Source of the DNA: a virus
Length of the DNA stretch: 64,000 nucleotides
Reading direction: 5' to 3' (one strand)
IMG/VR virus record: IMGVR_UViG_3300028283_000494
Location: 1-64,000 of that record
The notes under the pieces are model-generated. The model did not search any database, had not been told where the DNA came from, and saw only the letters and a list, made by a program, of their open reading frames with translations. The translations under genes were made by a program, and so were the position numbers. Positions 6,947 through 47,792 of the stretch are shown here, in pieces (positions within the stretch are counted from its first letter, which is position 1; the number at the start of each line of letters is the position of its first letter).

Positions 6947-9900
6947 TCTTCAGCGACTTCAATTTGGTTTTTATCCAACCAATAAGTTTGTCTATTTACA
7001 TAAATTTCATATTTTCCATATTTATAGATTGGAAGTTTTTGTACTCTGCCTTCTTTACCATTTATTTCATCGTTAACTGAATCTTTAACAATAACAGTAT
7101 CACCAACTTCTAGATCATCAATAGTTTTCTTAACTGGTTCTAGTTCGGCGTTTGGGTCTTTTGGTTTATAGGCTTTTCTGGCCACATTTCTTCTATTATA
7201 AACAAGTACGGGTTTCCTTGGTGGTTCTACCTCTTTCTTTTTCTTCTTTTTATCGGGTGATATATACCCAGATGAATAAGTTGAATCTGGTGCTACATAA
7301 GTAGATTTCTTTGTCGGTAAAGGTTCGTTTGTGGCAAATACAAATTCCGGATCAACGTATAATTTTAAAAATGAAACTAAATCGTCATCGAACTTAACGA
7401 TTAATTCCTTTTTACCATCTTTCACTCTATCACCTTGAAATTCTCCGACTCTACCTGTTTTAGCCCATTCGTATTTGCTATCTGGGTTAATATATTTAAC
7501 GGCTTGACCAAATTTAAATTCACCTGTATCTGAAGCCTCTTCGAGTAAAATAAGATTATCTGTAAATGTAGTTAGATAAATAGTATGACCTTTATTATTT
7601 TTAAGAACGATATTGTAACTTCTTGGTGGTGTTTCTTTTTGCCCTGCTACTTGTGGTGCTTCGTTTATACTACTAATTTCACCTATCAATCCGTCACTAG
7701 TACTGTCTGGATTAGTATATCTAATTTTATCCCCTTTTCTAAATATTCTAACAGGCGGTAAAAATTCTAAATTTTCATCTTTGGTTTTAATCTTAACCAT
7801 TTTACCTTCTTTTGATTTAATTTCAATCTCAAAAGGTTTTTCATCGTTTAAATTGAGTGTTGTTACTACACCTTTACATCCAAAGTGTTTACTATCTGGT
7901 TTAGTATAAACTACATCGTCATTAAGACCAACTTCTGTGCCAATAGGTTTAATAAATCTAGTCATTTCATCTGGAATACAACCAGATACAGTAACTATTG
8001 TACCGTTACTATTAAAAGTGATAGTGTGAGTATTTCCTTTTTTACCTTTTTCTATTTTTGTAACTATACCAACTTTACCGCTTAAGTCAGCGTCGTCGTC
8101 GTTTATGTATATAACTTTATCACCTTCTTTATAGTTATTATCGTTTATTTGAAGGTTTCTAGATGGTATAAAATATACAGATTTTTCATTTGAGACGCCT
8201 GGTTGTTTAGGAAATTTAACATCATAAGTTGTTTCTTTCTCCATCGAATAATTAGTAGCCAGATTTAGAAAAGTCACTTCACCTTTACATAGATGAAGAT
8301 CTTTATTTTTTTCGTCGTCTTTTCTGGATACATAAATAATTTTATCACCTTTTTTAAATTTATCAGCTTTACCAGTTTTCTTTGGCTCTGGTTTCTCCCA
8401 CGCCGTACTGATTGGTGGTCTGGAGGATGGCCCGTCTCTTTCCAATTTATTTGGATTAACGTTCATTAATGGTTGTTTAGCTCCAAATTTATTTATCACT
8501 TCAATATCTACAACTTGTGAAAAACCTTTAGATGAAATTCTATCGGCGTAAGTGACCCTACCTCTACATTCATCAAATTCTCCACCTGGATCTAATAATA
8601 TGATTTTATCACCAAAACCAAATTTTTCAACTTTCTTTTCTTTTTCTATTGGAACAAGTTGATCGTAATGTACACCGAAATCATTTTCACCGTCAGCATT
8701 CGCGAAATCTTTAACAAGCCAGTGTTGAGGACTAGTTAATTTTAAAAGTGTAACTTTTCTACCCATGAAGTAAGCGTCTTGTCCAGCTTTAAACTTATTA
8801 TCAACGTGTCTGATTATCTTTTTATCTTCGTCCTTTTTAGTTTCGTCTTTAAGAATTTTTTGTAAATCTTCCCCTTTTATCTTTCCAACGTTAACAAACA
8901 TTCTATTTTTATTACTAGCACTTACAATATCTATAATACCGGGATTTTCTTCAAACATGAACTGAACCTTGTATTGTATTTCACCGTCTGTTTCTTCGGG
9001 AATAGATACAGACTCTATTTTTCCTTTATATCCTTTGTATTTACTGTTAGGATTAGTATAAATCACTTTATCGTCAACCTCAAATTTTTCTATATATTTT
9101 CTTAAATATCTAGATTTACCTTGAACGCCTCCGTCTTTTTCTAATTCTTTATTATCAGCGACACTAAAAAATATGTTATATACTTTTTCTGTTTCTGTAG
9201 CTGTTGGCTCATCTACTGTTCTAATAACACCCACCATGTTATTAAATTTACTGCCTTGTTTAACGTAAAGAATTTTATCCCCTTCTTTCCAATCATCTAA
9301 TTCTAAATGTAATTGAGTATCTTCTTCTTTCTCTTTTTTAGTTTCTGTTGGTTTTATTGAAGTTATTGAATTACCACCGTACCTCACTTTTTTACATAAA
9401 GGAGTTAAACCAGTTAAATTTTCTAATTTGTTATCACTACAATCGTAAGTTCCACCAATTTTAATAGGACTACCTTCTAACGATGTTAATTTATTATTTG
9501 ATACCAAAAAATCACCGTAAACTTCCTCTGGTGATCCTTCTAAAGATTCTAGTCCATTCATCATGGCTATAAATCCACCACATTTCATTGGACTACCTTT
9601 TAAATTCTTCAATTTATTACCACTACAATTGAAAGTGCCAGTTACTATTGTTGTTTGTGATCCTTCTAATGTGGTTAATTTGTTATTGGCTACACTAAAA
9701 TAACCTTTAACTATTTTAGGTAAATTTTTCATACTTTTTAAACCAGCGTAATGCCAAATGAAATTACCATTGGCCACATTAAATACAACAGGACATACAT
9801 CTATGTTTCTAACAAGGATGGCTACATCAGAATTAACATCAACAGTATAATCTTTGTTTATAGCACAAACTTTAACATTGATACCAATCTTTTTAAGATT

Positions 9901-20521: not shown

Positions 20522-20594
20522 GCCTCCGTAGTTCAACGGAAGAGAATTCCAGTCTTCGAAACTGGCGATGAAGGTTCAAATCCTTCCAGAGGCA
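20522..20594 (+). tRNA. tRNA-Arg (anticodon UCG)
   Basis: Acceptor GCCTCCG/CAGAGGC, anticodon arm CCAGT-CTTCGAA-ACTGG, T arm GAAGG-TTCAAAT-CCTTC. Confidence 0.9.
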
Positions 20595-20600
20595 CAAATT

Positions 20601-20674
20601 GGCCCTATGGCGCAACTGAATAGCGCATCTGACTACGAATCAGAAGGTTACAGGTTTGAATCCTGTTAGGGTCA
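20601..20674 (+). tRNA. tRNA-Arg (anticodon ACG)
   Basis: Acceptor GGCCCTA/TAGGGTC, anticodon arm TCTGA-CTACGAA-TCAGA, T arm with TTTGAAT loop. Confidence 0.88.
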
Positions 20675-20680
20675 CTATAT

Positions 20681-20767
20681 CTAGGTGTAAGCCCGTAATT
20701 GGATAGCGATCTCGCCTTGGAAGCGAGTGTTAATATAACTCTGGAGGTTCGAGTCCTCTCACTTAGA
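20681..20767 (+). tRNA. tRNA with anticodon UGG and long variable arm
   Basis: Acceptor CTAGGTG/CACTTAG, anticodon arm CTCGC-CTTGGAA-GCGAG (UGG, proline), but the variable region forms a GTTA/TAAC hairpin as in class II tRNAs (Ser/Leu). Identity is therefore uncertain: Pro by anticodon, Ser-like by shape. Confidence 0.7.
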
Positions 20768-20775
20768 CAAAAATT

Positions 20776-20940
20776 GGGGTAACAACAGAGTGGCGGTCTG
20801 TACAGGCAACGATAACCTGATTGAATGACGAATTGCGGATGCACCTATAGCGACCTTATGTTGAGGTGGTGAGAAAACAATGAGCAAGGGAAGCGAGTTA
20901 CTAGTCTTCAGCGGTGTGGGTTCGAATCCCACTTACTCCA
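20776..20940 (+). tRNA. Oversized tRNA-like element
   Basis: A 7-bp acceptor (GGGGTAA/TTACTCC) and a perfect T arm (GTGGG-TTCGAAT-CCCAC) enclose about 165 bases instead of 75-90. A D-arm-like hairpin ACAGA-GTGGCGG-TCTGT follows the 5' strand. The extra 80 bases contain further stems (CACCT/AGGTG) and could be an insertion or a giant variable arm. Anticodon not assigned. Confidence 0.45.
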
Positions 20941-20942
20941 CA

Positions 20943-20999
20943 GGGTCTGGACGTGCCTTTCTTTAGTTCTCGAGATAAAAGAAAGGATGCTAAAGACCC
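20943..20999 (+). ncRNA. Inter-tRNA hairpin
   Basis: GGGTCT/AGACCC closes a second 9-bp stem CCTTTCTTT/AAAGAAAGG with a 13-base loop. One of several stable hairpins between the tRNAs; possibly a processing signal or small RNA. Confidence 0.45.
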
Positions 21000-21008
21000 A
21001 TAAAATAA

Positions 21009-21077
21009 GGGTCTGAAGTGTAAGGGAAGCACGTTTGTGTCGCAAACAAAAAGGCGGGTTCAAATCCCGAAGATCCA
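21009..21077 (+). tRNA. tRNA-Asp (anticodon GUC)
   Basis: Acceptor GGGTCT/AGATCC, D arm with AAGGGAAGC, anticodon loop GTGTCGC, T arm CGGG-TTCAAAT-CCCG. Confidence 0.75.
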
Positions 21078-21080
21078 CAA

Positions 21081-21174
21081 GATATGGCAATATCGTAAAA
21101 TAAGGTTCGAATCCCACCCGGGGCAGCTCGAAAGGCTTGCCCAGGGAAGCAGAGTAAAGGTCTCTTGCCATATC
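21081..21174 (+). ncRNA. tRNA-like RNA closed by a 9-bp stem, arms out of order
   Basis: GATATGGCA pairs perfectly with TGCCATATC. Inside, in order, are a TTCGAAT T-type loop (21103-21115), a GGGCAGC/GCTTGCCC hairpin, and an AGAG-TAAAGGT-CTCT D-type arm. This is the order expected for a circularly permuted tRNA, but the T stem is weak and the acceptor does not align well. Tentative. Confidence 0.35.
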
Positions 21175-21178
21175 ATAC

Positions 21179-21250
21179 GGCCCCATCTTCCAACGGATAG
21201 GAAATATGTTTCCTAAACATACAATACAGATTCGATTTCTGTTGGGGTCA
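21179..21250 (+). tRNA. tRNA-Arg (anticodon CCU)
   Basis: Acceptor GGCCCCA/TGGGGTC, anticodon arm TATGT-TTCCTAA-ACATA, T arm ACAGA-TTCGATT-TCTGT. Confidence 0.88.
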
Positions 21251-21269
21251 CAATAAAATGGAAAAGTTT

Positions 21270-21304
21270 GAGTTTTTTATATTTATATATACAAATAAAA
21301 ACTC
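21270..21304 (+). promoter_or_regulatory. Stem-loop with AT-rich promoter core before HNH gene
   Basis: GAGTTTTT pairs with AAAAACTC around TATATTTATATATAC, ending six bases before the ATG at 21310. Same architecture, with different flanking bases that stay complementary, precedes the endonucleases at 22496, 25847, 30265 and 45576. Confidence 0.55.
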
Positions 21305-21309
21305 TAACT

Positions 21310-22014
21310 ATGAAATCCAAAAAAGATTACACAAAAATATTATACTGGGCTAAAAAGATCAAATCGATCGAAACATTGGGGGGTAAATGTGAAAATTGTG
21401 GAGATAATAATATTTTTCATTTGACTTATCATCATATAGATCCTAATATGAAAGAATTTGAAATGACAAATATTAAAACTTATAGATGGAGTAAAATTGA
21501 AAAAGAATTAAGTAAATGTATATTGTTATGTCATAATTGTCATAATGAAATTCATAAAAATGGATCTGAAGGCAGATTCAATGATAATAAAAAGTTATTC
21601 TTGGAATTTAAAAATATAAAATCTTGTGAAAATTGCAATTATGATAAATATAATGGTTCATTGCATTTTCATCACGAAAAAGAAAAAAAATTCAAATTGA
21701 GTAGGATTATGGTATCTTATAATAATATAGATCAATTAAGCGAAAATATCACTGATGAATTAAATAAATGTATAGTTTTATGTGCTAATTGTCATCAAGA
21801 ATTTCACATGGATAGAAAATTTTTTGATAAACACAAAGAAGAAATTTTTAATAAATCTAAAAATATTAAAGAAATTACACCAAAAATAGATAGAAACATT
21901 GTTAAAAAGATGTATTTTGAAGATGGTAAAAAACAAATAGAAATAGTTAAATTTTTCGGTTGCACTAAAGGAGCGATCAGTGATATCGTAAAAAAAATAA
22001 AAATGCAGGAGTAG
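21310..22014 (+). CDS. Free-standing endonuclease with two HNH-like zinc modules
   Basis: 234 residues from ATG 21310. Two repeated HNH-type modules are visible: CENCGDNN...HHIDPN...LLCHNCHNEIH and CENCNYD...FHHEKEK...VLCANCHQEFH. The C-terminus (FEDGKKQIEIVKFFGCTKG) is a helix-turn-helix that probably recognises DNA. The last codons and stop lie inside a truncated tRNA-Gly copy, suggesting it inserted in or rearranged the tRNA array. Confidence 0.8.
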   Translation: MKSKKDYTKILYWAKKIKSIETLGGKCENCGDNNIFHLTYHHIDPNMKEFEMTNIKTYRWSKIEKELSKCILLCHNCHNEIHKNGSEGRFNDNKKLFLEFKNIKSCENCNYDKYNGSLHFHHEKEKKFKLSRIMVSYNNIDQLSENITDELNKCIVLCANCHQEFHMDRKFFDKHKEEIFNKSKNIKEITPKIDRNIVKKMYFEDGKKQIEIVKFFGCTKGAISDIVKKIKMQE

Positions 22015-22030
22015 TACAATGGTCAGTACG
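22005..22030 (+). pseudogene. Orphan 5' half of tRNA-Gly
   Basis: These 26 bases match the 5' acceptor and D arm of the intact tRNA-Gly(GCC) at 24593 with one difference, then stop exactly before the anticodon arm. No matching 3' half (CTCCTGC or CTCTTGC) follows. The stop codon of the upstream HNH gene lies within it. Confidence 0.7.
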
Positions 22031-22038
22031 ATTCAAAT

Positions 22039-22146
22039 AAACGGGTGGCGGAATGGTAAACGCACCTTTGAATGGAGGAGGAGGTGATGACAAACTGGTT
22101 CGACCAGGAAAATCTCTGAATGTGGGTTCAACTCCCATCCCGTTTA
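22039..22146 (+). tRNA. Class II tRNA, probably Ser (UGA), with GGA-repeat insertion
   Basis: Perfect acceptor AAACGGG/CCCGTTT, D arm GGCGGAATGGTAAACGC and a T arm TGGG-TTCAACT-CCCA. The variable arm has a CTGG-TTCGA-CCAG hairpin. The anticodon arm CACC-TTTGAAT-GG is followed by (AGG) repeats before GGTG, as if three GGA units had been inserted into the 3' strand. Ser(UGA) is the best reading; Phe/Leu cannot be excluded. Confidence 0.5.
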
Positions 22147-22148
22147 CA

Positions 22149-22250
22149 AATGAGTGGCGGAAACAAAAGACGCACCAGGCAAGCAAGACTGGCGTGGATA
22201 TAGAAATGACTTGATAATCTCCACGTGCGGGTGTAAACCCCGTCTCATTC
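22149..22250 (+). tRNA. Class II tRNA, Leu-like
   Basis: Acceptor AATGAG/CTCATT, D arm GGCGG...GACGC, T arm GCGGG-TGTAAAC-CCCGT, a long GTGGA/TCCAC variable arm, and ACCA after the acceptor. The anticodon loop between CCAG and CTGG is ten bases (contains CAAG), so the anticodon is uncertain, possibly CAA. Confidence 0.45.
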
Positions 22251-22284
22251 ACCAATTAGTTCTTTGAACGTAAAAATACCCACC

Positions 22285-22349
22285 GGTAATAAGTTGTAAG
22301 ATTAAACATTGTCAAACAACAAGGTCTTCCAATCCTTACACTTATTACC
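22285..22349 (+). ncRNA. Inter-tRNA hairpin
   Basis: GGTAATAAG pairs perfectly with CTTATTACC, extended by TGTAAG/CTTACA. Loop of about 30 bases with an internal TTGT/ACAA pairing. Confidence 0.5.
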
Positions 22350-22353
22350 AAAC

Positions 22354-22425
22354 GCTGGTGTAGTATAATGGTCATTACAGGGCTCTTGTAAAGCTCGAAT
22401 GGTGGTTCGATTCCACTCACTAGCT
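22354..22425 (+). tRNA. tRNA-Thr (anticodon UGU)
   Basis: Acceptor GCTGGTG/CACTAGC, anticodon arm GGGCT-CTTGTAA-AGCTC, T loop TTCGATT. Confidence 0.88.
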
Positions 22426-22463
22426 CTAAAAAATAATTCATCAAAACTCATTTTTGGCTCTAA

Positions 22464-22497
22464 ATAATTTTATATATAATAATAAAAATGAAATTAT
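22464..22497 (+). promoter_or_regulatory. Stem-loop sequestering an HNH start codon
   Basis: ATAATTT pairs with AAATTAT around TATATATAATAATAAAAATG; the ATG at 22496 begins in the 3' arm, so the hairpin would hide the start in longer transcripts. Confidence 0.5.
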
Positions 22498-23221
22498 GTG
22501 GACACAAGAAAAAATGAATGAAGCTATAAAATTAGCAAAAGAAGGCAAAACTTATGATGAAATAGGTAAAATTCTAAATAAAACAGGTCATTCTATAAAA
22601 TGTAAATTTTTAAAAAATAAAATTAAAATAACTGATTTTAAAGAAATTAAAAAATATAAAGTTGTTGATTGTTTAAATTGTGGTAAAGAAATTTTTGGCG
22701 GTGATAGAAAGTTTTGTAATACTAGTTGTGCTGCTATATTTAATAATAAAAAAAGAGACAAAAAGATATTTGAAAAAATAAGTATATCATTAAAAACACA
22801 AAATATTAAAAAAATTTGTTATTGTGTATATTGTGGAGAAAGTTTAAAAGGAAAAAATACCACTTATTGTAATAATACATGTTGTGGTAAACATAGAAGA
22901 GAAATAAGTATAGGAAAATGGAAGAATGACGAAATTGAAGTGACAACATCAGGTAAAATTAAACCTTTTCTTAGAGATTATCTATTTAAAAAATATAATA
23001 ATAAATGCTCTAAATGTGGTTGGGGTGAAGTGAACGAATTTACCAATAAAATACCACTAGAAGTGGAACACATAGATGGTAATAGTGAAAACAATAAAGA
23101 AGAAAATTTAACACTTTTATGTCCTTGTTGTCATTCATTAACAAAGACATATAAAGGAGCAAATAGAGGAAATGGTAGGCACAATAGAATGATTAGATAT
23201 AGAAATGACAAATCATTTTAA
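22496..23221 (+). CDS. HNH homing endonuclease with N-terminal HTH
   Basis: About 241 residues from ATG 22496. An N-terminal helix-turn-helix (AIKLAKEGKTYDEIGKILNK) is followed by two C4-type zinc knuckles (CLNCGKEIFGG...FCNTSC and CVYCGESL...YCNNTC) and a C-terminal HNH nuclease (CSKCGWGEV, LEVEHIDGNSENN, LTLLCPCCHSLT). Located between tRNA genes, as a free-standing element. Confidence 0.88.
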   Translation: MWTQEKMNEAIKLAKEGKTYDEIGKILNKTGHSIKCKFLKNKIKITDFKEIKKYKVVDCLNCGKEIFGGDRKFCNTSCAAIFNNKKRDKKIFEKISISLKTQNIKKICYCVYCGESLKGKNTTYCNNTCCGKHRREISIGKWKNDEIEVTTSGKIKPFLRDYLFKKYNNKCSKCGWGEVNEFTNKIPLEVEHIDGNSENNKEENLTLLCPCCHSLTKTYKGANRGNGRHNRMIRYRNDKSF

Positions 23222-23229
23222 AATTATAT

Positions 23230-23301
23230 TCCGATATAATTCAAGGGTAGAATGCCAACTTGGTAAGTTGGATGTTTCGTGTTCAAGTCACGATATCGGA
23301 T
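23230..23301 (+). tRNA. tRNA-Thr (anticodon GGU)
   Basis: Acceptor TCCGATA/TATCGGA, anticodon arm CCAAC-TTGGTAA-GTTGG, T loop TTCAAGT. Confidence 0.88.
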
Positions 23302-23314
23302 CACGCGGAGACTG

Positions 23315-23365
23315 TTAGAATTTCATAGGGCCCCAGAGATAAGAGGAAAACATAGAAATTCATAA
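23315..23365 (+). ncRNA. Inter-tRNA hairpin
   Basis: TTAGAATTTC pairs with GAAATTC(A)TAA just upstream of tRNA-Val; loop rich in purines. Confidence 0.4.
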
Positions 23366-23366
23366 T

Positions 23367-23438
23367 GCGATTGTATCTCAGGGGTAGAGTGGTTGGTTTA
23401 CATCCAATTTGTCGGTGGTTCGAATCCATCCAGTCGCA
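23367..23438 (+). tRNA. tRNA-Val (anticodon UAC)
   Basis: Acceptor GCGATTG/CAGTCGC, anticodon arm TTGG-TTTACAT-CCAA, T arm GGTGG-TTCGAAT-CCATC. Confidence 0.85.
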
Positions 23439-23440
23439 CA

Positions 23441-23551
23441 CCTATTCATAGTTTATCGTGGTTAAAACACAACGACGAATACATCGCCCTTTCTGAATTA
23501 AATCAGACGAATGTATTAAGAGTAAGTGAGTTCAAGCCTCACTGAATGGGT
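23441..23551 (+). tRNA. Oversized tRNA-like element (111 nt)
   Basis: Acceptor CCTATTCA/TGAATGGG, D arm GTTT-ATCGTGGTTA-AAAC and a perfect T arm GTGAG-TTCAAGC-CTCAC are present. The middle has a 7-bp AATACAT/ATGTATT stem enclosing an inner CTGA/TCAG hairpin, about 30 bases more than normal. Anticodon not assignable; it may carry an insertion in the anticodon arm. Confidence 0.5.
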
Positions 23552-23557
23552 AAATAT

Positions 23558-23632
23558 GTTTCTGTAGCTCAGTTGGTTGAGAGCATTACCTTGACAGGGT
23601 AGGGGTCGATGGTTCGAATCCATTCAGGAACA
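23558..23632 (+). tRNA. tRNA-Val (anticodon GAC)
   Basis: Acceptor GTTTCTG/CAGGAAC, D arm AGCTCAGTTGGTTGAGAGC, anticodon arm TACC-TTGACAG-GGTA, T arm GATGG-TTCGAAT-CCATT. Confidence 0.9.
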
Positions 23633-23681
23633 CACGCGGTTTTAGCCTTTTAAACGCGACAGGTGGAAAAAGGCATTTAAC

Positions 23682-23753
23682 GGGGCATTAGTTCAGTGGC
23701 GAGAACAGAAGACCTGCAATCTTCAGACAAGGGTTCGACTCCCTTATGCTCCA
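23682..23753 (+). tRNA. tRNA-Ala (anticodon UGC)
   Basis: Acceptor GGGGCAT/ATGCTCC, anticodon arm GAAGA-CCTGCAA-TCTTC, T loop TTCGACT. A GCCTTTT/AAAAGGC hairpin lies just upstream (about 23645-23674). Confidence 0.9.
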
Positions 23754-23756
23754 CGA

Positions 23757-23830
23757 GGATTGAAATATGGGTTCGACCCCCATCCGCTCCTTCGGGGGAG
23801 GTAGTTTAATGGTAAAACACATTCCGTATG
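23757..23830 (+). ncRNA. Candidate circularly permuted tRNA
   Basis: In order: GGATT (3' anticodon strand), GAAAT (five-base variable loop), ATGGG-TTCGACC-CCCAT (perfect T arm), CCGCTCC (3' acceptor) joined by TTCG to GGGGAGG (5' acceptor, 6 of 7 pairs), TA, GTTT-AATGGTA-AAAC (perfect D arm), then ATTCC (5' anticodon strand, 4 of 5 pairs with GGATT) and GT. All tRNA parts are there, but the gene begins and ends in the anticodon loop. The anticodon would be about AUG after joining; uncertain. Confidence 0.45.
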
Positions 23831-23900
23831 GGAAGGTAATTTAATGGAGAAGGCCCCGGTGGATGCTGGGGTGGTATGAGTTCGAACCTCATTCTTTCCA
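23830..23900 (+). tRNA. tRNA-like element, D arm degenerate
   Basis: Acceptor GGGAAGG/TCTTTCC (seven pairs with GU wobbles), T arm ATGAG-TTCGAAC-CTCAT and an anticodon-type stem CCCCG/TGGGG with an eight-base loop GTGGATGC. No convincing D stem. It follows directly on the permuted element. Isotype uncertain. Confidence 0.45.
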
Positions 23901-23907
23901 CATATAC

Positions 23908-23980
23908 GGGGATGTAGCTCAGTTGGAAGAGCGTTTGCCTGGCAGGCAAAAGGTAGCCGGTTCGAACCCGGCCATCTCCA
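23908..23980 (+). tRNA. tRNA-Ala (anticodon GGC)
   Basis: Acceptor GGGGATG/CATCTCC, D arm AGCTCAGTTGGAAGAGC, anticodon arm TTTGC-CTGGCAG-GCAAA, T arm GCCGG-TTCGAAC-CCGGC. Confidence 0.92.
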
Positions 23981-23995
23981 CTAAAATTAATAGAC

Positions 23996-24211
23996 ATGGA
24001 AACAAAATGGATTTCAATAGAAGAGGCTTTACCAGAACCACAAATGGGAAAAACTTGGAAAACTTGCGAGCACGTTTTGGCTTATAGTCCCTCTACAATA
24101 GGTATTATAGTAGCAATATATTTTGGTGATAATTTGGATGGACCAACAAAAGGGTGGACAAATATGGGAGTTACTCATTGGATGCCATTACCAGATAAAC
24201 CAGTAAAATGA
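23996..24211 (+). CDS. DUF551 protein
   Basis: 71 residues. METKWISIEEALPEPQ at the start, VLAYSPSTIGIIVAIYF in the middle and VTHWMPLPDKP at the end match DUF551, a small domain common in phages and of unknown function. Sits inside the tRNA array directly after tRNA-Ala. Confidence 0.85.
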   Translation: METKWISIEEALPEPQMGKTWKTCEHVLAYSPSTIGIIVAIYFGDNLDGPTKGWTNMGVTHWMPLPDKPVK

Positions 24212-24238
24212 AAAAATGAATTTTAAAAAATAGACGTC

Positions 24239-24427
24239 ATGGAAAATTACGGAATAGGTCAGATAATTACAGATTTAGATGGCAGTACGTGTACCATCGT
24301 TGATATGACGTCAAATTCGATTTGTGTTCATATTAAAAAGAAAAAAGAAGGCGGTATAGATTGTAATAATTGGTTTACTTTTACTGACTTCGAAAAAAGA
24401 TTTAAGGCTGCAAACTTAAAATGGTAA
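24239..24427 (+). CDS. Hypothetical protein (62 aa)
   Basis: Follows the DUF551 gene by 27 bases. Strand-rich (GIGQIITDLDGSTCTIVDMT) with a WFTFTDFEKRF C-terminus, reminiscent of small KOW/SH3-like barrels, but the match is weak. Confidence 0.55.
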   Translation: MENYGIGQIITDLDGSTCTIVDMTSNSICVHIKKKKEGGIDCNNWFTFTDFEKRFKAANLKW

Positions 24428-24432
24428 AAATA

Positions 24433-24520
24433 GATTACACACAGCAAAAAACCAAATGGTAAAAAAAACAACTGAAAATTGTTTTGAGACGATTCGATGC
24501 GTCACAATAAAAATGTAATC
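24433..24520 (+). ncRNA. YACAGCAA-type structured RNA, copy 1
   Basis: GATTACA/TGTAATC close a multi-stem RNA; just inside is CACAGCAA, then hairpins ACCA/TGGT, AACAA/TTGTT and GACG/CGTC, then CACAATAAAAA before the closing strand. Shares layout with the copies at 24531, 25224, 44900 and 45069. Confidence 0.5.
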
Positions 24521-24530
24521 TGAAAACAAA

Positions 24531-24590
24531 GAATACTTACAGCAAATAAAAAACTTTCTTCCAAAAAGTGAATAAAAAGTATTCTGTAAT
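24531..24590 (+). ncRNA. YACAGCAA-type structured RNA, copy 2
   Basis: GAATAC/GTATTC closing stem, TTACAGCAA inside, hairpin ACTTT/AAAGT, then GAATAAAAA. The TGTAA after the stem could pair back with TTACA as a pseudoknot in this copy only. Confidence 0.5.
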
Positions 24591-24592
24591 AC

Positions 24593-24664
24593 GCAGGAGT
24601 AGTACAATGGTTAGTACGTCGGCTTGCCAAGCCGAGGATGTGAGTTCGATTCTCATCTCTTGCT
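24593..24664 (+). tRNA. tRNA-Gly (anticodon GCC)
   Basis: Acceptor GCAGGAG/CTCTTGC, anticodon arm CGGC-TTGCCAA-GCCG, T arm GTGAG-TTCGATT-CTCAT. Confidence 0.92.
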
Positions 24665-24682
24665 CTATATATTAAAATAAAT

Positions 24683-24754
24683 GCGAAAGTAGTATAAAGG
24701 CTATTACTCCAGCCTTCCAAGCTGGACATGAGGGTTCGATTCCCTTCTTTCGCT
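24683..24754 (+). tRNA. tRNA-Gly (anticodon UCC)
   Basis: Acceptor GCGAAAG/CTTTCGC, anticodon arm CCAGC-CTTCCAA-GCTGG, T arm AGGG-TTCGATT-CCCT. Confidence 0.92.
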
Positions 24755-24759
24755 CAATT

Positions 24760-24831
24760 GCGAATATAGTTCAGTGATAGAATATTTGCTTCCCAAGCAA
24801 AGGGTAGTGGGTTTGAGTCCCACTATTCGCT
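24760..24831 (+). tRNA. tRNA-Gly (anticodon CCC)
   Basis: Acceptor GCGAATA/TATTCGC, anticodon arm TTTGC-TTCCCAA-GCAAA, T arm GTGGG-TTTGAGT-CCCAC. Confidence 0.92.
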
Positions 24832-24833
24832 CA

Positions 24834-24914
24834 GAGATTAACTTACCTTTATTGATGCACACCATTGCGTGATTGGTAGGAGATGTGGAGTAATTCTCCA
24901 TCTACGTTAATCTC
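24834..24914 (+). ncRNA. Inter-tRNA hairpin closed by a 9-bp stem
   Basis: GAGATTAAC pairs perfectly with GTTAATCTC; inside, GGAG-TAATT-CTCC forms a second hairpin and CCATT/ATTGG (imperfect) a third. No tRNA T loop. Confidence 0.45.
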
Positions 24915-24923
24915 AAAATTATT

Positions 24924-25022
24924 GCGGAGGTAGTTTAGTGGGAAAATTGCCATGATCAGCCATACTGTTTAAGTGCAGATGAATTTGGTGGGTAGTCAAA
25001 GGTTCGAATCCTTTTCTTCGCT
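24924..25022 (+). tRNA. tRNA-like, anticodon arm with hairpin insertion
   Basis: Acceptor GCGGAGG/TTCTTCGC, D arm GTTT-AGTGGGA-AAAT, T arm AAAGG-TTCGAAT-CCTTT. The anticodon stem TTGCCA/TGGTGG encloses 33 bases instead of 7, including a small CAT(A)CTG/CAGATG hairpin. Probably a tRNA (Gly or Ile) with an insertion of about 26 bases in its anticodon loop. Confidence 0.5.
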
Positions 25023-25131
25023 CAGGGTGGTTGGTATAATAGGTGAAACCATCAATGTTCTCGCCCTTCCCAGTAGCTTCGGTGATTAATAGAACTTCGG
25101 TTCGCTGACCAAGGATAAAAGAGAACGCCCA
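25023..25131 (+). ncRNA. Complex hairpin / tRNA-like RNA
   Basis: GGGTGGTT pairs with AACGCCC (one bulge), GTTCTC with GAGAAC, and CTT(C)GGT with ACCAAG around a TCGCTG loop resembling a T arm. No assignable anticodon. Confidence 0.35.
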
Positions 25132-25136
25132 ACAAT

Positions 25137-25219
25137 GCGGCTATCGTATAATGGCAACGAGAGTTAGATTATGTCGGTCTTCCAAACCGAGGATGTGAGT
25201 TCGATTCTCACTAGCCGCT
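25137..25219 (+). tRNA. tRNA-Gly (anticodon UCC) with insertion between D and anticodon arms
   Basis: Acceptor GCGGCTA/TAGCCGC (perfect), D arm TCGT-ATAATGGCA-ACGA, anticodon arm TCGGT-CTTCCAA-ACCGA, T arm GTGAG-TTCGATT-CTCAC. Position 26 is replaced by about 13 bases. Confidence 0.75.
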
Positions 25220-25223
25220 CAAT

Positions 25224-25289
25224 GAATGCTCACAGCAACCAAAAGCTTTAATAAGCAACAAACTTGTAATTTGTAGAAAAAAAGCATTC
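25224..25289 (+). ncRNA. YACAGCAA-type structured RNA, copy 3
   Basis: GAATGC/GCATTC closing stem, TCACAGCAAC inside, hairpins GCTT-TAAT-AAGC and ACAAA/TTTGT, then an AGAAAAAAA linker. Confidence 0.5.
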
Positions 25290-25296
25290 TGTATAT

Positions 25297-25376
25297 GGCC
25301 CTGTAATGGCAGAGTCTTCTAAACTCTAAGCGCATAATGGAAACTGAAAATAAGGGTTCGAGTCCCTTCTGGGTCA
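25297..25376 (+). tRNA. tRNA-Arg (anticodon UCU), no normal D arm
   Basis: Acceptor GGCCCTG/CTGGGTC (one mismatch), anticodon arm AGAGT-CTTCTAA-ACTCT, T arm AAGGG-TTCGAGT-CCCTT. Only about eight bases separate acceptor and anticodon arms; about 24 extra bases, repeating TAATGG, lie in the variable region instead. Confidence 0.6.
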
Positions 25377-25422
25377 CAAAATAAATAATTAAAATTGATT
25401 TTTTTATATTAAAACTTTGTCG

Positions 25423-25430
25423 TATATTTG
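25423..25430 (+). promoter_or_regulatory. Bacteroidota-type -7 element
   Basis: TATATTTG with a TTG about 26 bases upstream; placed before a structured non-coding stretch and tRNA-Arg/tRNA-Pro. Confidence 0.6.
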
Positions 25431-25439
25431 CAATAAGAA

Positions 25440-25620
25440 ACTAAAATTTAAAGAAAGGAAATGACGTTAAATCAAGTTGGATAATGGAAACCCAGCCTGC
25501 CTCACTAGCAAGGAAATGAAAGTCCGAATCTTTCTCCGCCCTACTCAAAAAGGGGCGTGTGGGTAAAAGCCAAATGATGTCGAAATAGTGTAACGAGATT
25601 TGAATATATAATTGATTATC
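25440..25620 (+). ncRNA. Structured non-coding RNA candidate
   Basis: About 180 bases behind a promoter element with no ORF. CCCA/TGGG long-range pairing, a CGCCC/GGGGCG hairpin and GAAAG/CTTTC are visible. It contains AAAGTCCGAA but lacks the rest of an RNase P core. Function unknown. Confidence 0.4.
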
Positions 25621-25624
25621 AAAT

Positions 25625-25696
25625 GGTTCCGTAGATCAACGGATAGATCGGGTGACTTCTAATCTCCAGATACAGGTTCGATTCCTGTCGGGACTA
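25625..25696 (+). tRNA. tRNA-Arg (anticodon UCU)
   Basis: Acceptor GGTTCCG/CGGGACT, anticodon loop CTTCTAA, T arm ACAGG-TTCGATT-CCTGT. Confidence 0.88.
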
Positions 25697-25709
25697 CAAA
25701 TGGAAAACA

Positions 25710-25778
25710 GCGGATGTGGTGTAATGGTAACATACTTGCTTTGGGAGCAAGGGTAGCGGTTCAAGTCCGACATCTGCT
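25710..25778 (+). tRNA. tRNA-Pro (anticodon UGG)
   Basis: Acceptor GCGGATG/CATCTGC, anticodon arm CTTGC-TTTGGGA-GCAAG, T loop TTCAAGT. Confidence 0.9.
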
Positions 25779-25811
25779 ACAAGGATTTAAGTTCAAAACA
25801 GAAAAAACTGA

Positions 25812-29066: not shown

Positions 29067-29153
29067 AGCCTGGTTCCGATAGCGATCGATTCGACCTGTT
29101 TCGTAAACAGGAGTATGATATACCATCGTTGGTTTGAATCCAACACCAGGCTC
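29067..29153 (+). tRNA. tRNA with anticodon CGU and long variable arm
   Basis: Perfect acceptor AGCCTGG/CCAGGCT, anticodon arm CCTGT-TTCGTAA-ACAGG (CGU, threonine), T arm GTTGG-TTTGAAT-CCAAC. The variable region forms GTAT/ATAC, as in class II tRNAs, so Ser identity is an alternative. Confidence 0.75.
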
Positions 29154-29424: not shown

Positions 29425-30108
29425 ATGAAAAAGATTCAAATCGAAATCATGGCTTCCGAGGGAGGTAATGATTCAAAACTATTAGTGGTAGATCTTATGG
29501 ATATTTATATCAGATCAGCAAAAAACCAAAACTTCAATTGAAGAGTAGTTGAAGTCAAAGATGGTTTTGCTTCGATATGAATAGAAGGTGATAGCGTAAA
29601 CAAATTTTACGCAAACGAAAGTGGAGCACATTGCTTTTCGAGGATACCACCAACAGAAAGAAATGGTAGAACTCAAACAAGTATAGTTAAAGTGGCGATA
29701 ATGAACCCAGAAAAAGAAGCGGGATACGTTTTGAATAGAAATGATGTAACAAAAAATTATATCAGATCTTCAAAAAAAGCGGGTGGCCAAAATTTAAACA
29801 AAGTTTCTTCTTGTGTTCAATTAATACATATTCCAACTGGTATTCAGGTTAAAGTTCAGGACACAAGAGATCAAACCAAAAATGAAATTATCGCGTGGGA
29901 AAGATTGACTCAAAAATTAAAAGTCATCGAAGACAAGAACGATCGTGAAAAAATTGATAACAAACGCAAGGATCAAATTGGAGAACATGGTAGAGGAAAT
30001 AAAAGAAGAACATACAGATTGAAAGAAGATATCGTGCAAGATCATATCACTGGCAAATCATGTAGATGGAAGGATATATTGAAAGGTAAAATAGAGTTAC
30101 TTTTCTAA
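29425..30108 (+). CDS. RF1-like peptide chain release factor with two in-frame UGA codons
   Basis: The frame is continuous for 227 positions from ATG 29425 to TAA 30106 except for TGA at 29539-29541 and 29578-29580. The protein is a short class-I release factor: IEIMASEGGNDSKLL (domain 2 start), RIPPTERNGRTQTS with a P-x-T tripeptide at the RF1 codon-recognition site, and RSSKKAGGQNLNKVSSCVQL carrying the catalytic GGQ. The N-terminal domain of full RF1 is absent. The first UGA (NFN[UGA]RVVEV) aligns with the Trp of bacterial RF1 (RRWRVEI), and the second sits in ASI[UGA]IEGD, where Trp also fits. No frameshift is needed, unlike cellular prfB. Expression would therefore need UGA readthrough; inactivation by two G-to-A changes is the alternative. 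Confidence 0.75.
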
Positions 30109-46751: not shown

Positions 46752-47792
46752 ATGATTAAGTATTTTTGTAATAAAGACGAAATAGAAAAAAACGCAACAG
46801 ACCTCATTCTGGCATCAGAAAATGAGATGGACGAAATCTGCGTTTTCCCTGATATTCATTACTGTTCAGAGAAAGCTATTCCTGTCGGTGTTACATTCTC
46901 CTCAACTGATAAATTCTTCCCTCTTGTTACAGGGAAAGACGTTGGATGTGGTGTTATGTTTTTAAGATTTCCAGTTAAAGCTTGGAAGAAATCATTTAAC
47001 AAATTTGAACACTACAGCGCATTTAACAAAGCAAGTCAATTATTCACAGATGAAGGACTTGGTGGTGGAAATCACTTCCTTTCAATTGAAGATGGTGACG
47101 ATGATTATACTTATATAATTTGCCACACAGGAACAAGGAATCTTGGGATTTATATGTATCAATATTTCTTAAAATTAATAGATGATTTCAACTTTGATGA
47201 AGGCACAAAAGGAAACAGTTTACCTATTGATATGTGGACTGATGAATTAAATGAAAAATATTCAAAAGTTGTTAATTCTGGAACTTCAAGAAGATTACAA
47301 TTTGTAACCAAAACTTTTGAATTCCTTATTCACAATGGTTATATCAATAAAGTGAATTACGAAGTGAATGATTCAATTCACAATGTTTTCACAGTAGATG
47401 GTAGAAAAGCCATTCATAGAAAGGGAGCAACAGTATTAGATGGAACTCAAGTCGCTATTCCATTATCAATGACTAGAGGAACTTTAATAGTAGCACCAAA
47501 ACCAATGATTGATATGAGTGAAAATCTTTGGTCTTGTGCACACGGAGCTGGAAGAAAACTCAGCAGAACTGATACTCTGAAACACTGGCACTCATTAAAG
47601 AAAAAAGAAAAGAAAATATATGAGCAAAATTTTGTAGAAATGTTGGGAAGAGATGGAAAATTCCCAAATGGTTACTTACAAGAGTTTGACTTTGCTTACA
47701 AAAGCACAGACACTCTTTTAAAAGATCAACCATTTCTTAAAAAAGTAACTCAAACTAAACCTATTGTAACTGTTAAATTTACAGAAATTTAA
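46752..47792 (+). CDS. rtcB: RtcB-family RNA ligase
   Basis: 346 residues. VFPDIHYCSEKAIPVG, TGKDVGCGVMFLRF (metal-binding Asp and Cys), DEGLGGGNHFLSIE, HTGTRNLG, IHRKGATVLDG and CAHGAGRKLSR (guanylylated His region) follow the RtcB order. RtcB joins 2',3'-cyclic phosphate and 5'-OH RNA ends with GTP and Mn2+, repairing tRNAs cut by host anticodon nucleases. It belongs to the shorter phage/bacterial subgroup (cellular RtcB is about 400-480). Followed by a Ro60-like gene. Confidence 0.9.
   Translation: MIKYFCNKDEIEKNATDLILASENEMDEICVFPDIHYCSEKAIPVGVTFSSTDKFFPLVTGKDVGCGVMFLRFPVKAWKKSFNKFEHYSAFNKASQLFTDEGLGGGNHFLSIEDGDDDYTYIICHTGTRNLGIYMYQYFLKLIDDFNFDEGTKGNSLPIDMWTDELNEKYSKVVNSGTSRRLQFVTKTFEFLIHNGYINKVNYEVNDSIHNVFTVDGRKAIHRKGATVLDGTQVAIPLSMTRGTLIVAPKPMIDMSENLWSCAHGAGRKLSRTDTLKHWHSLKKKEKKIYEQNFVEMLGRDGKFPNGYLQEFDFAYKSTDTLLKDQPFLKKVTQTKPIVTVKFTEI

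Follow-up and report, generated by a model that had tools for sequence, protein, structure and literature searches.

How a complete release factor can be made from a gene with two stop codons inside its reading frame is the question raised by a locus in the genome of a virus. The locus lies in the window, i.e., the whole stretch of DNA analysed (64,000 nucleotides, positions 1 to 64,000 of IMG/VR record IMGVR_UViG_3300028283_000494), and the source contig of the window is a virus record of 108,427 bases. A sequence-only reading had described an RF1-type gene with GGQ and PxT motifs and two in-frame UGA codons in an otherwise open frame of 227 codons, and this description was confirmed: the TGAs at 29539 and 29578 are the sole interruptions, and both motifs are present (Table 1). 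PxT is the signature tripeptide of RF1, and SPF is the tripeptide of RF2. When TGA is read as a residue, the window protein matches the Pfam families PCRF (2.2e-16) and RF-1 (PF00472; 8.7e-24) as well as RF1 structures (1zbt, 7.8e-31); furthermore, an AlphaFold2 model made with 37 relatives reached a pLDDT of 90, and its best match in the PDB was ribosome-bound RF1 (TM 0.89). The match to the prfA profile starts only at profile position 104-112, indicating that domain I is missing, and scores 153 bits against a curated cut-off of 423. The frame is the same before and after both UGAs, the window gene has no prfB-type shift cassette, and no in-frame start codon was found between its second UGA and P-P-T. 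Two codon-reading residues of the window factor are changed (in the window clade, HTS becomes QTS and the Gln of RF1 becomes Ser, Ile or Val); because of these changes its codon range is uncertain, and so is a predicted restriction to UAA and UAG.

Table 1. Features of the window, with positions counted from its first letter.
Feature	Position	Strand	Remarks
RF1-like release factor gene	29425..30108	+	227 codons; stop TAA at 30106; starts at the PCRF codon-recognition domain, without domain I
In-frame UGA, codon 39	29539..29541	+	context AAU UGA AGA; same codon in LR756501 and in 10/25 nonredundant window-clade members
In-frame UGA, codon 52	29578..29580	+	context AUA UGA AUA; window clade TGA 22/25, TAG 3/25, TGG 0 (nonredundant; set picked for a stop or Trp there)
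P-P-T codon-reading tripeptide (RF1 type PxT)	29647..29655	+	3' of both UGAs
GGQ peptidyl-tRNA hydrolysis motif	29782..29790	+	within the RF-1 domain
tRNA-Thr(CGT) gene	29068..29153	+	271 bp upstream of the release factor gene
Phage tRNA array, 14 tRNA genes (Arg, Thr, Val, Ala, Gly, Pro)	20522..25780	+	syntenic with LR756501; UGA decoded by none
RtcB-like RNA ligase gene	46752-47792	+	346 residues, partial match to PF01139; RtcB at 46830-47777; 17 kb from the release factor gene

In-frame stops were also present in relatives of the gene, and this rules out chance. The 735-kb phage LR756501, which is syntenic with most of the window (nucleotide identity mainly 80-96%), encodes a release factor of 73% identity with both TGAs; the second TGA is present in LR756502 (60% identity), and LR745206 and LR756504 (45% identity) have TGAs within the same 15 codons. 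The pair of window and LR756501 alone says little about TGA conservation, because the two genes agree at about 99% of their first 200 nt, where both TGAs lie; beyond this stretch they have diverged much more strongly, giving the appearance of a mosaic or recombinant gene. The survey comprised 246 homologous loci with 190 distinct proteins, mostly from huge phages, and the viral contig scans yielded 80 + 80 + 80 loci. About 8 of the 246 loci lacked both an internal stop and a +1 shift; in the others the interruption almost always fell within one short segment ahead of the codon-reading loop. No internal stop was found in 5 of the 190 distinct proteins. These fractions are no unbiased census, since the search motifs, although lying outside the recoding site, were taken from alignments of carriers. 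The reading frame was single at 165 loci, with one UGA in 135, two in 19, UGA and UAG in 3, UAG in 1, UAG and a later UAA in 1 that looks decayed, and no stop in 6. At the other 81 loci the N-terminal part lies in another frame; CUU precedes the stop in 80 of them, and the remaining one, L059, has a deletion. The stop of the 80 shift cassettes (SD-like sequence, CUU, stop) was UGA in 64, UAG in 14 and UAA in 2.

PxT was present in 110 of 112 readthrough-UGA members, and three members (L262, L264 and L268) have a codon-reading loop without PxT and keep the CUU-stop cassette. All 20 of 20 phage records had one release factor gene each. Beyond phages, the family occurs on plasmids of Rhizobium, Variovorax and Bosea, in the UGA form in chromosomes or MAGs of Thalassospira, Jiella and Rhodovibrio, and with CUU UGA or CUU UAG in Minicystis and other myxobacteria (chromosomes or MAGs). 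In a quick tree, in which many forks are weakly supported, readthrough and shift forms fall mostly into separate clades with some switches (L244; L047 and L072), and UAG is scattered among UGA.

Three anatomies of the recoding site were distinguished, with internal stops 35-52 codons past the start and ahead of the parts that read the stop codon and cleave peptidyl-tRNA. The window clade has UGA at codon 39 or 43-46 and/or at codons 50-54; at the first site, TGA stands in 10 of its 25 nonredundant members and a sense codon other than that of Trp in the remaining 15 (TAT, TAC, GTA, TCT, TGT or GCT), and L047 and L072 have CUU UAG C at the second. Clade 2 has a single UGA, mostly at codon 36, which is TGA in 57 of 57 nonredundant members, and its genes use TGG 115 times elsewhere. 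In the shift clade (69 nonredundant members), the prfB cassette sits near codon 37; as the protein starts with domain II, this is not where prfB itself has it. CUU is present in 69 of 69, an SD-like sequence in 58 and C after the stop in 50, and the stops are UGA in 54, UAG in 13 and UAA in 2. It had been claimed from the window alone that both UGAs stand at tryptophan positions; however, the first lies two residues past the conserved aromatic of Thermus thermophilus RF1, the second corresponds to no Trp position in aligned RF1 sequences, and TGG was never found at the recoding sites in the aligned sets, related phages having TGA, TAG or non-Trp sense codons at the two places instead. The accompanying remark that no shift is required held for the window but not for relatives with +1 shifts at nearly the same codon, some of them at UAG, and because of these relatives what is conserved is the early stop rather than UGA read as Trp.

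Clade 2 carries a conserved RNA element past its stop. Over the 16 codons that follow the UGA, synonymous identity reaches 0.75-0.83, versus 0.46 in the whole gene, and a hairpin with a 16-bp stem begins 7-12 nt 3' of the UGA; 92.7% of its cells pair, 8 pairs show compensatory changes, 0 of 500 shuffles were as good, and slid versions dropped to 25-45% paired. A covariance model of the hairpin matched further clade-2 members and, weakly, Thalassospira (L269), and gave no match in the window gene; a search of Rfam at the hairpin of three loci returned no known family. Neither synonymous constraint nor a conserved hairpin was detected in the window clade, and the fold of the window mRNA was only slightly better than shuffles (z -1.8).

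Divergence in the window clade after the last stop was 0.287, 0.189 and 0.520 by codon position, the excess at third positions being present before the stop as well, and in the other clades third positions were likewise the most diverged after the stop. Moreover, a start codon between the last stop and PPTE is lacking in 23 of 26 window-clade members. Because of this third-position divergence and the usual lack of a start before PPTE, the region past the stop is most simply explained as translated by ribosomes that passed it. The earlier claim that a full-length factor needs UGA readthrough, the gene being gated by UGA decoding, is supported. Judging from these sequence comparisons, coding after the stops is kept under constraint and the gene is not a pseudogene.

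The same evidence bears on two explanations that need no recoding. A pseudogene or a sequencing error is suggested by the stops themselves and by the broken look of a few single members (L052 and L059); however, the same stops recur across hundreds of independently assembled loci, coding is intact with a codon-position bias downstream, and the structural model is good, so that this explanation is refuted and keeps next to no probability. In relatives, where decay had been named as the sign of a pseudogene, divergence after the UGAs is codon-structured instead. It is also very doubtful that the gene is split, with a separate, ArfB-like GGQ-domain protein without codon reading made from an internal start (29692 GTG or 29701 ATG): an ORF of 138 residues is present for it, but a Shine-Dalgarno-like sequence is absent upstream of the internal starts, and residues 53-90, which are conserved and hold the PxT motif, precede every such start.

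UGA is an ordinary stop in G000, LR756501 and G006, and the release factor gene stands out in each. TGA is the stop of 32 of 109 ORFs of at least 100 residues in the contig, TGG is used 407 times, and a scan of the contig for ORFs made intact by reading TGA as sense gave the release factor gene as the only convincing case. The same scan had one convincing case in LR756501, again this gene, the other candidates there being extensions close to the 3' end; in G006, a record of 364 kb, the gene ranked first and was the only candidate that other ORFs did not cover. The sequence-only reading had proposed that the full-length factor is made only where UGA is reassigned and had suggested a search for a suppressor tRNA and a TrpRS. 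A TrpRS-like gene was found in LR756501, but a tRNA with a UCA anticodon, whether suppressor or selenocysteine, was found neither in the contig, nor in the whole record of LR756501, nor in G006, nor among the 1,223 tRNAs of the family's loci. A genome recoded at UGA (code 4 or 25) was rejected, given that UGA ends about one third of the contig ORFs, that an in-frame UGA is clear only in the release factor gene and that a UCA tRNA is absent. Both the window phage and LR756501 use UAA more often than any other stop.

Of the two tRNA-Trp(CCA) genes of LR756501, one has a mismatched A27.C43 pair and the other adjoins the TrpRS-like gene. A tRNA-Trp(CCA) with a 4-bp stem increases UGA readthrough in E. 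coli (PMC13092985), and the A27.C43 mismatch is likened here to that feature. Phage tRNA-Trp(CCA) genes in which the first or last anticodon-stem pair is mismatched (27-43 or 31-39) were also seen at L022:4163-4235 and 7248-7319, L373:16342-16414 and several other loci, in readthrough and shift clades alike. A tRNA gene lies at most 2.5 kb from the release factor gene at 79 of 137 loci. The tRNA-Thr genes of 86-88 nt (29068-29153 in the window; L001:1162-1249 in LR756501) apparently have a long variable arm, which is unusual for threonine tRNAs.

Amber (CUA) anticodon tRNAs were observed in phages with a UGA-gated RF1-type factor (L027:40585-40738, at about 690.6 kb of LR756501, and L367:3408-3482) and within a few kb of the release factor gene at L043, L045, L048, L057, L058 and L060-L062, and UAG is rare as a stop in phages with such tRNAs. 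Amber recoding, considered because of the CUA tRNAs near the gene in several window-clade loci, was rejected; code 15 hardly raises coding density. Three ORFs of LR756501 (163430-164209, 635555-636118 and 185104-185661) are joined if UAG is read as sense, with an internal TAG at codons 33, 30 and 98, respectively, and are possible amber readthrough genes. In-frame TAA or TAG within 4 codons was seen past 40-53% of TGA stops and 23-26% of TAA stops in LR756501, in a frame-specific manner; no such enrichment was found in G006 or G001, and tandem back-up stops were not used as an argument for genome-wide UGA readthrough.

We regard it as nearly certain that recoding of the release factor gene is real, conserved and functional. 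The favoured reading, to which we assign a probability of about 0.7, is that programmed recoding couples synthesis of the phage RF1-type factor to termination efficiency. The factor would consist of domains II to IV only, with its synthesis set by recoding at the internal stops. Efficient termination at the early stop would leave nothing but a short peptide of no use (in the window, 38 residues); weak or slow termination would let ribosomes read through the UGA, as in the window, or slip +1 at the CUU before the stop, as in sister lineages, and either event would give the complete factor. The internal stop would be a gauge of termination capacity, and at UGA, the usual case, the competitor would be host RF2-type activity. 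By taking over UAA, the commonest stop, the RF1-type product could free RF2 for UGA and so close an indirect feedback loop, while a factor with UAG at its internal stop could regulate itself directly. The window UGA would most likely be decoded by tRNA-Trp(CCA), with Trp as the inserted residue, because LR756501 has the two tRNA-Trp(CCA) genes, one with A27.C43, and the TrpRS-like gene; natural or stimulated readthrough by this tRNA is a simpler route than reassignment of UGA. We infer that a product past the UGA is made, that it responds to release factor levels, and which codons it reads.

The mixture of stops, and the retention of the cassette in members without PxT, suggest that general termination capacity is sensed, rather than that the factor strictly recognises its own stop. 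Put more broadly, and tentatively, with the odds somewhat against the proposal as a whole, the RF1-type factor of huge phages and some bacteria may be switched on by shortage of a different factor: UGA (or UAG) would be passed when RF2 (or total termination capacity) is low in infection, which would keep termination balanced during the takeover of translation, and the lineages would do so by in-frame readthrough, by readthrough with a 3' hairpin, or by prfB-like +1 shifts at UGA, UAG or UAA, with the site at almost the same codon in all of them. Some points weigh against the coupling. Direct feedback needs UGA reading, yet PxT is the signature of RF1; the cassettes of L262, L264 and L268 are kept without PxT, and the link to the factor's own activity may be loose; and a plain leaky attenuator would also fit the window clade, which has neither synonymous constraint nor a hairpin.

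Such constitutive attenuation, in which leaky stops keep the amount of a toxic or potent factor constantly low with no sensing, is unlikely. The leakiest stop, UGA, predominates, the window clade often has two UGAs in series with no RNA stimulator detected, and bacteria are harmed when release factors, above all RF2, are overproduced (PMC12421855). However, a weak start site or promoter would serve equally, readthrough in the hairpin clade appears raised and not merely tolerated, and the entire prfB cassette, which in prfB responds to the RF2 level, is retained in the shift clade with an invariant CUU. No more probable is direct self-regulation, whereby a phage factor of widened specificity would terminate at its own internal stop, whichever that is. 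The presence of all three stops in the cassette (64/14/2) and the changed codon-reading residues of the window clade agree with it, but canonical RF1 residues are kept in most members, and no covariation of stop identity with the codon-reading tripeptide, which would have pointed to a matched self-regulation, was seen across the family. Least probable of these, and largely refuted, is production of the factor only in hosts or infection stages in which UGA is reassigned to Trp or Gly. A UGA-recoded cell would tolerate a factor of RF1-type specificity, and LR756501 has tRNA-Trp and TrpRS-like genes; nevertheless, about one third of the contig ORFs end at UGA with no other gene clearly needing it as sense, UCA tRNAs are absent as described above, and a UGA gate cannot explain the +1 shifts of sister lineages at UGA, UAG or UAA. 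Chromosomal copies also occur in Thalassospira and Rhodovibrio, which are standard-code bacteria.

The coupling was compared with known systems. Expression of prfB is autoregulated by a programmed +1 frameshift at a cassette of an SD-like sequence, CUU and UGA C (PMC5009743; PMC12421855), and a 2025 survey found no programmed shift in prfA (PMC12421855). As in prfB, the phage gene encodes a release factor and has an early in-frame stop, and the shift clade has the same cassette, usually with UGA C; sensing of termination efficiency was shown for prfB, and we infer it for the phage family. Unlike the product of prfB, the phage protein is of the RF1 type without domain I, with P-P-T in place of SPF; its site lies in domain II instead of the N-terminal domain, the window gene relies on in-frame readthrough with no shift, and UAG is present in 13 of 69 nonredundant phage-family cassettes versus 0 of 8,164 prfB motifs (PMC12421855). 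Bacterial RF1 shares the PCRF and RF-1 domains, PxT, GGQ and the ribosome-bound RF1 fold; the phage family differs in its lack of domain I, its recoding signals and its scores of 153-207 bits against the prfA cut-off of 423. PrfH (release factor H) also lacks domain I and has been described with RtcB RNA repair (PMC6514570); however, the phage family reaches at most 83 bits against a cut-off of 167 (67.7 versus 166.65 for the window) and is much closer to RF1, and identity with PrfH was rejected, with the score far below the cut-off and RtcB not adjacent. Two RtcB genes were seen in LR756501, not next to the release factor gene, and none in five other phage records. Lak phages are likewise huge phages that encode a release factor, but that of Lak-B5 is a full-length RF2 type (V-S-P-Y) with no internal stop, and the window phage is not recoded. 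Finally, clade 2, with its UGA, short spacer and stable stem-loop, resembles readthrough with a 3' hairpin in RNA viruses; here, however, the product is a release factor, and the window clade has no hairpin.

To our knowledge, autoregulatory recoding of a bacterial-type release factor was previously known for prfB (RF2) only, and no earlier description of the RF1-type recoding family was found in the open-access journal papers searched. The passages found in the huge-phage paper mention RF1 and RF2 genes but not the internal stops (PMC7162821), and phages go unmentioned in a review of how release factors evolved (PMC6514570). On the best reading, the same principle as prfB autoregulation would be at work in another protein, at another position and by several mechanisms. 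A widespread RF1-type family whose several mechanical forms of recoding can be compared side by side makes it testable why release factors need such control, whether prfB has a UGA because that codon is read by RF2, and by what means phages maintain termination. The Variovorax copy is annotated as two CDS, and since annotation cuts such genes in two, many of them are probably misannotated.
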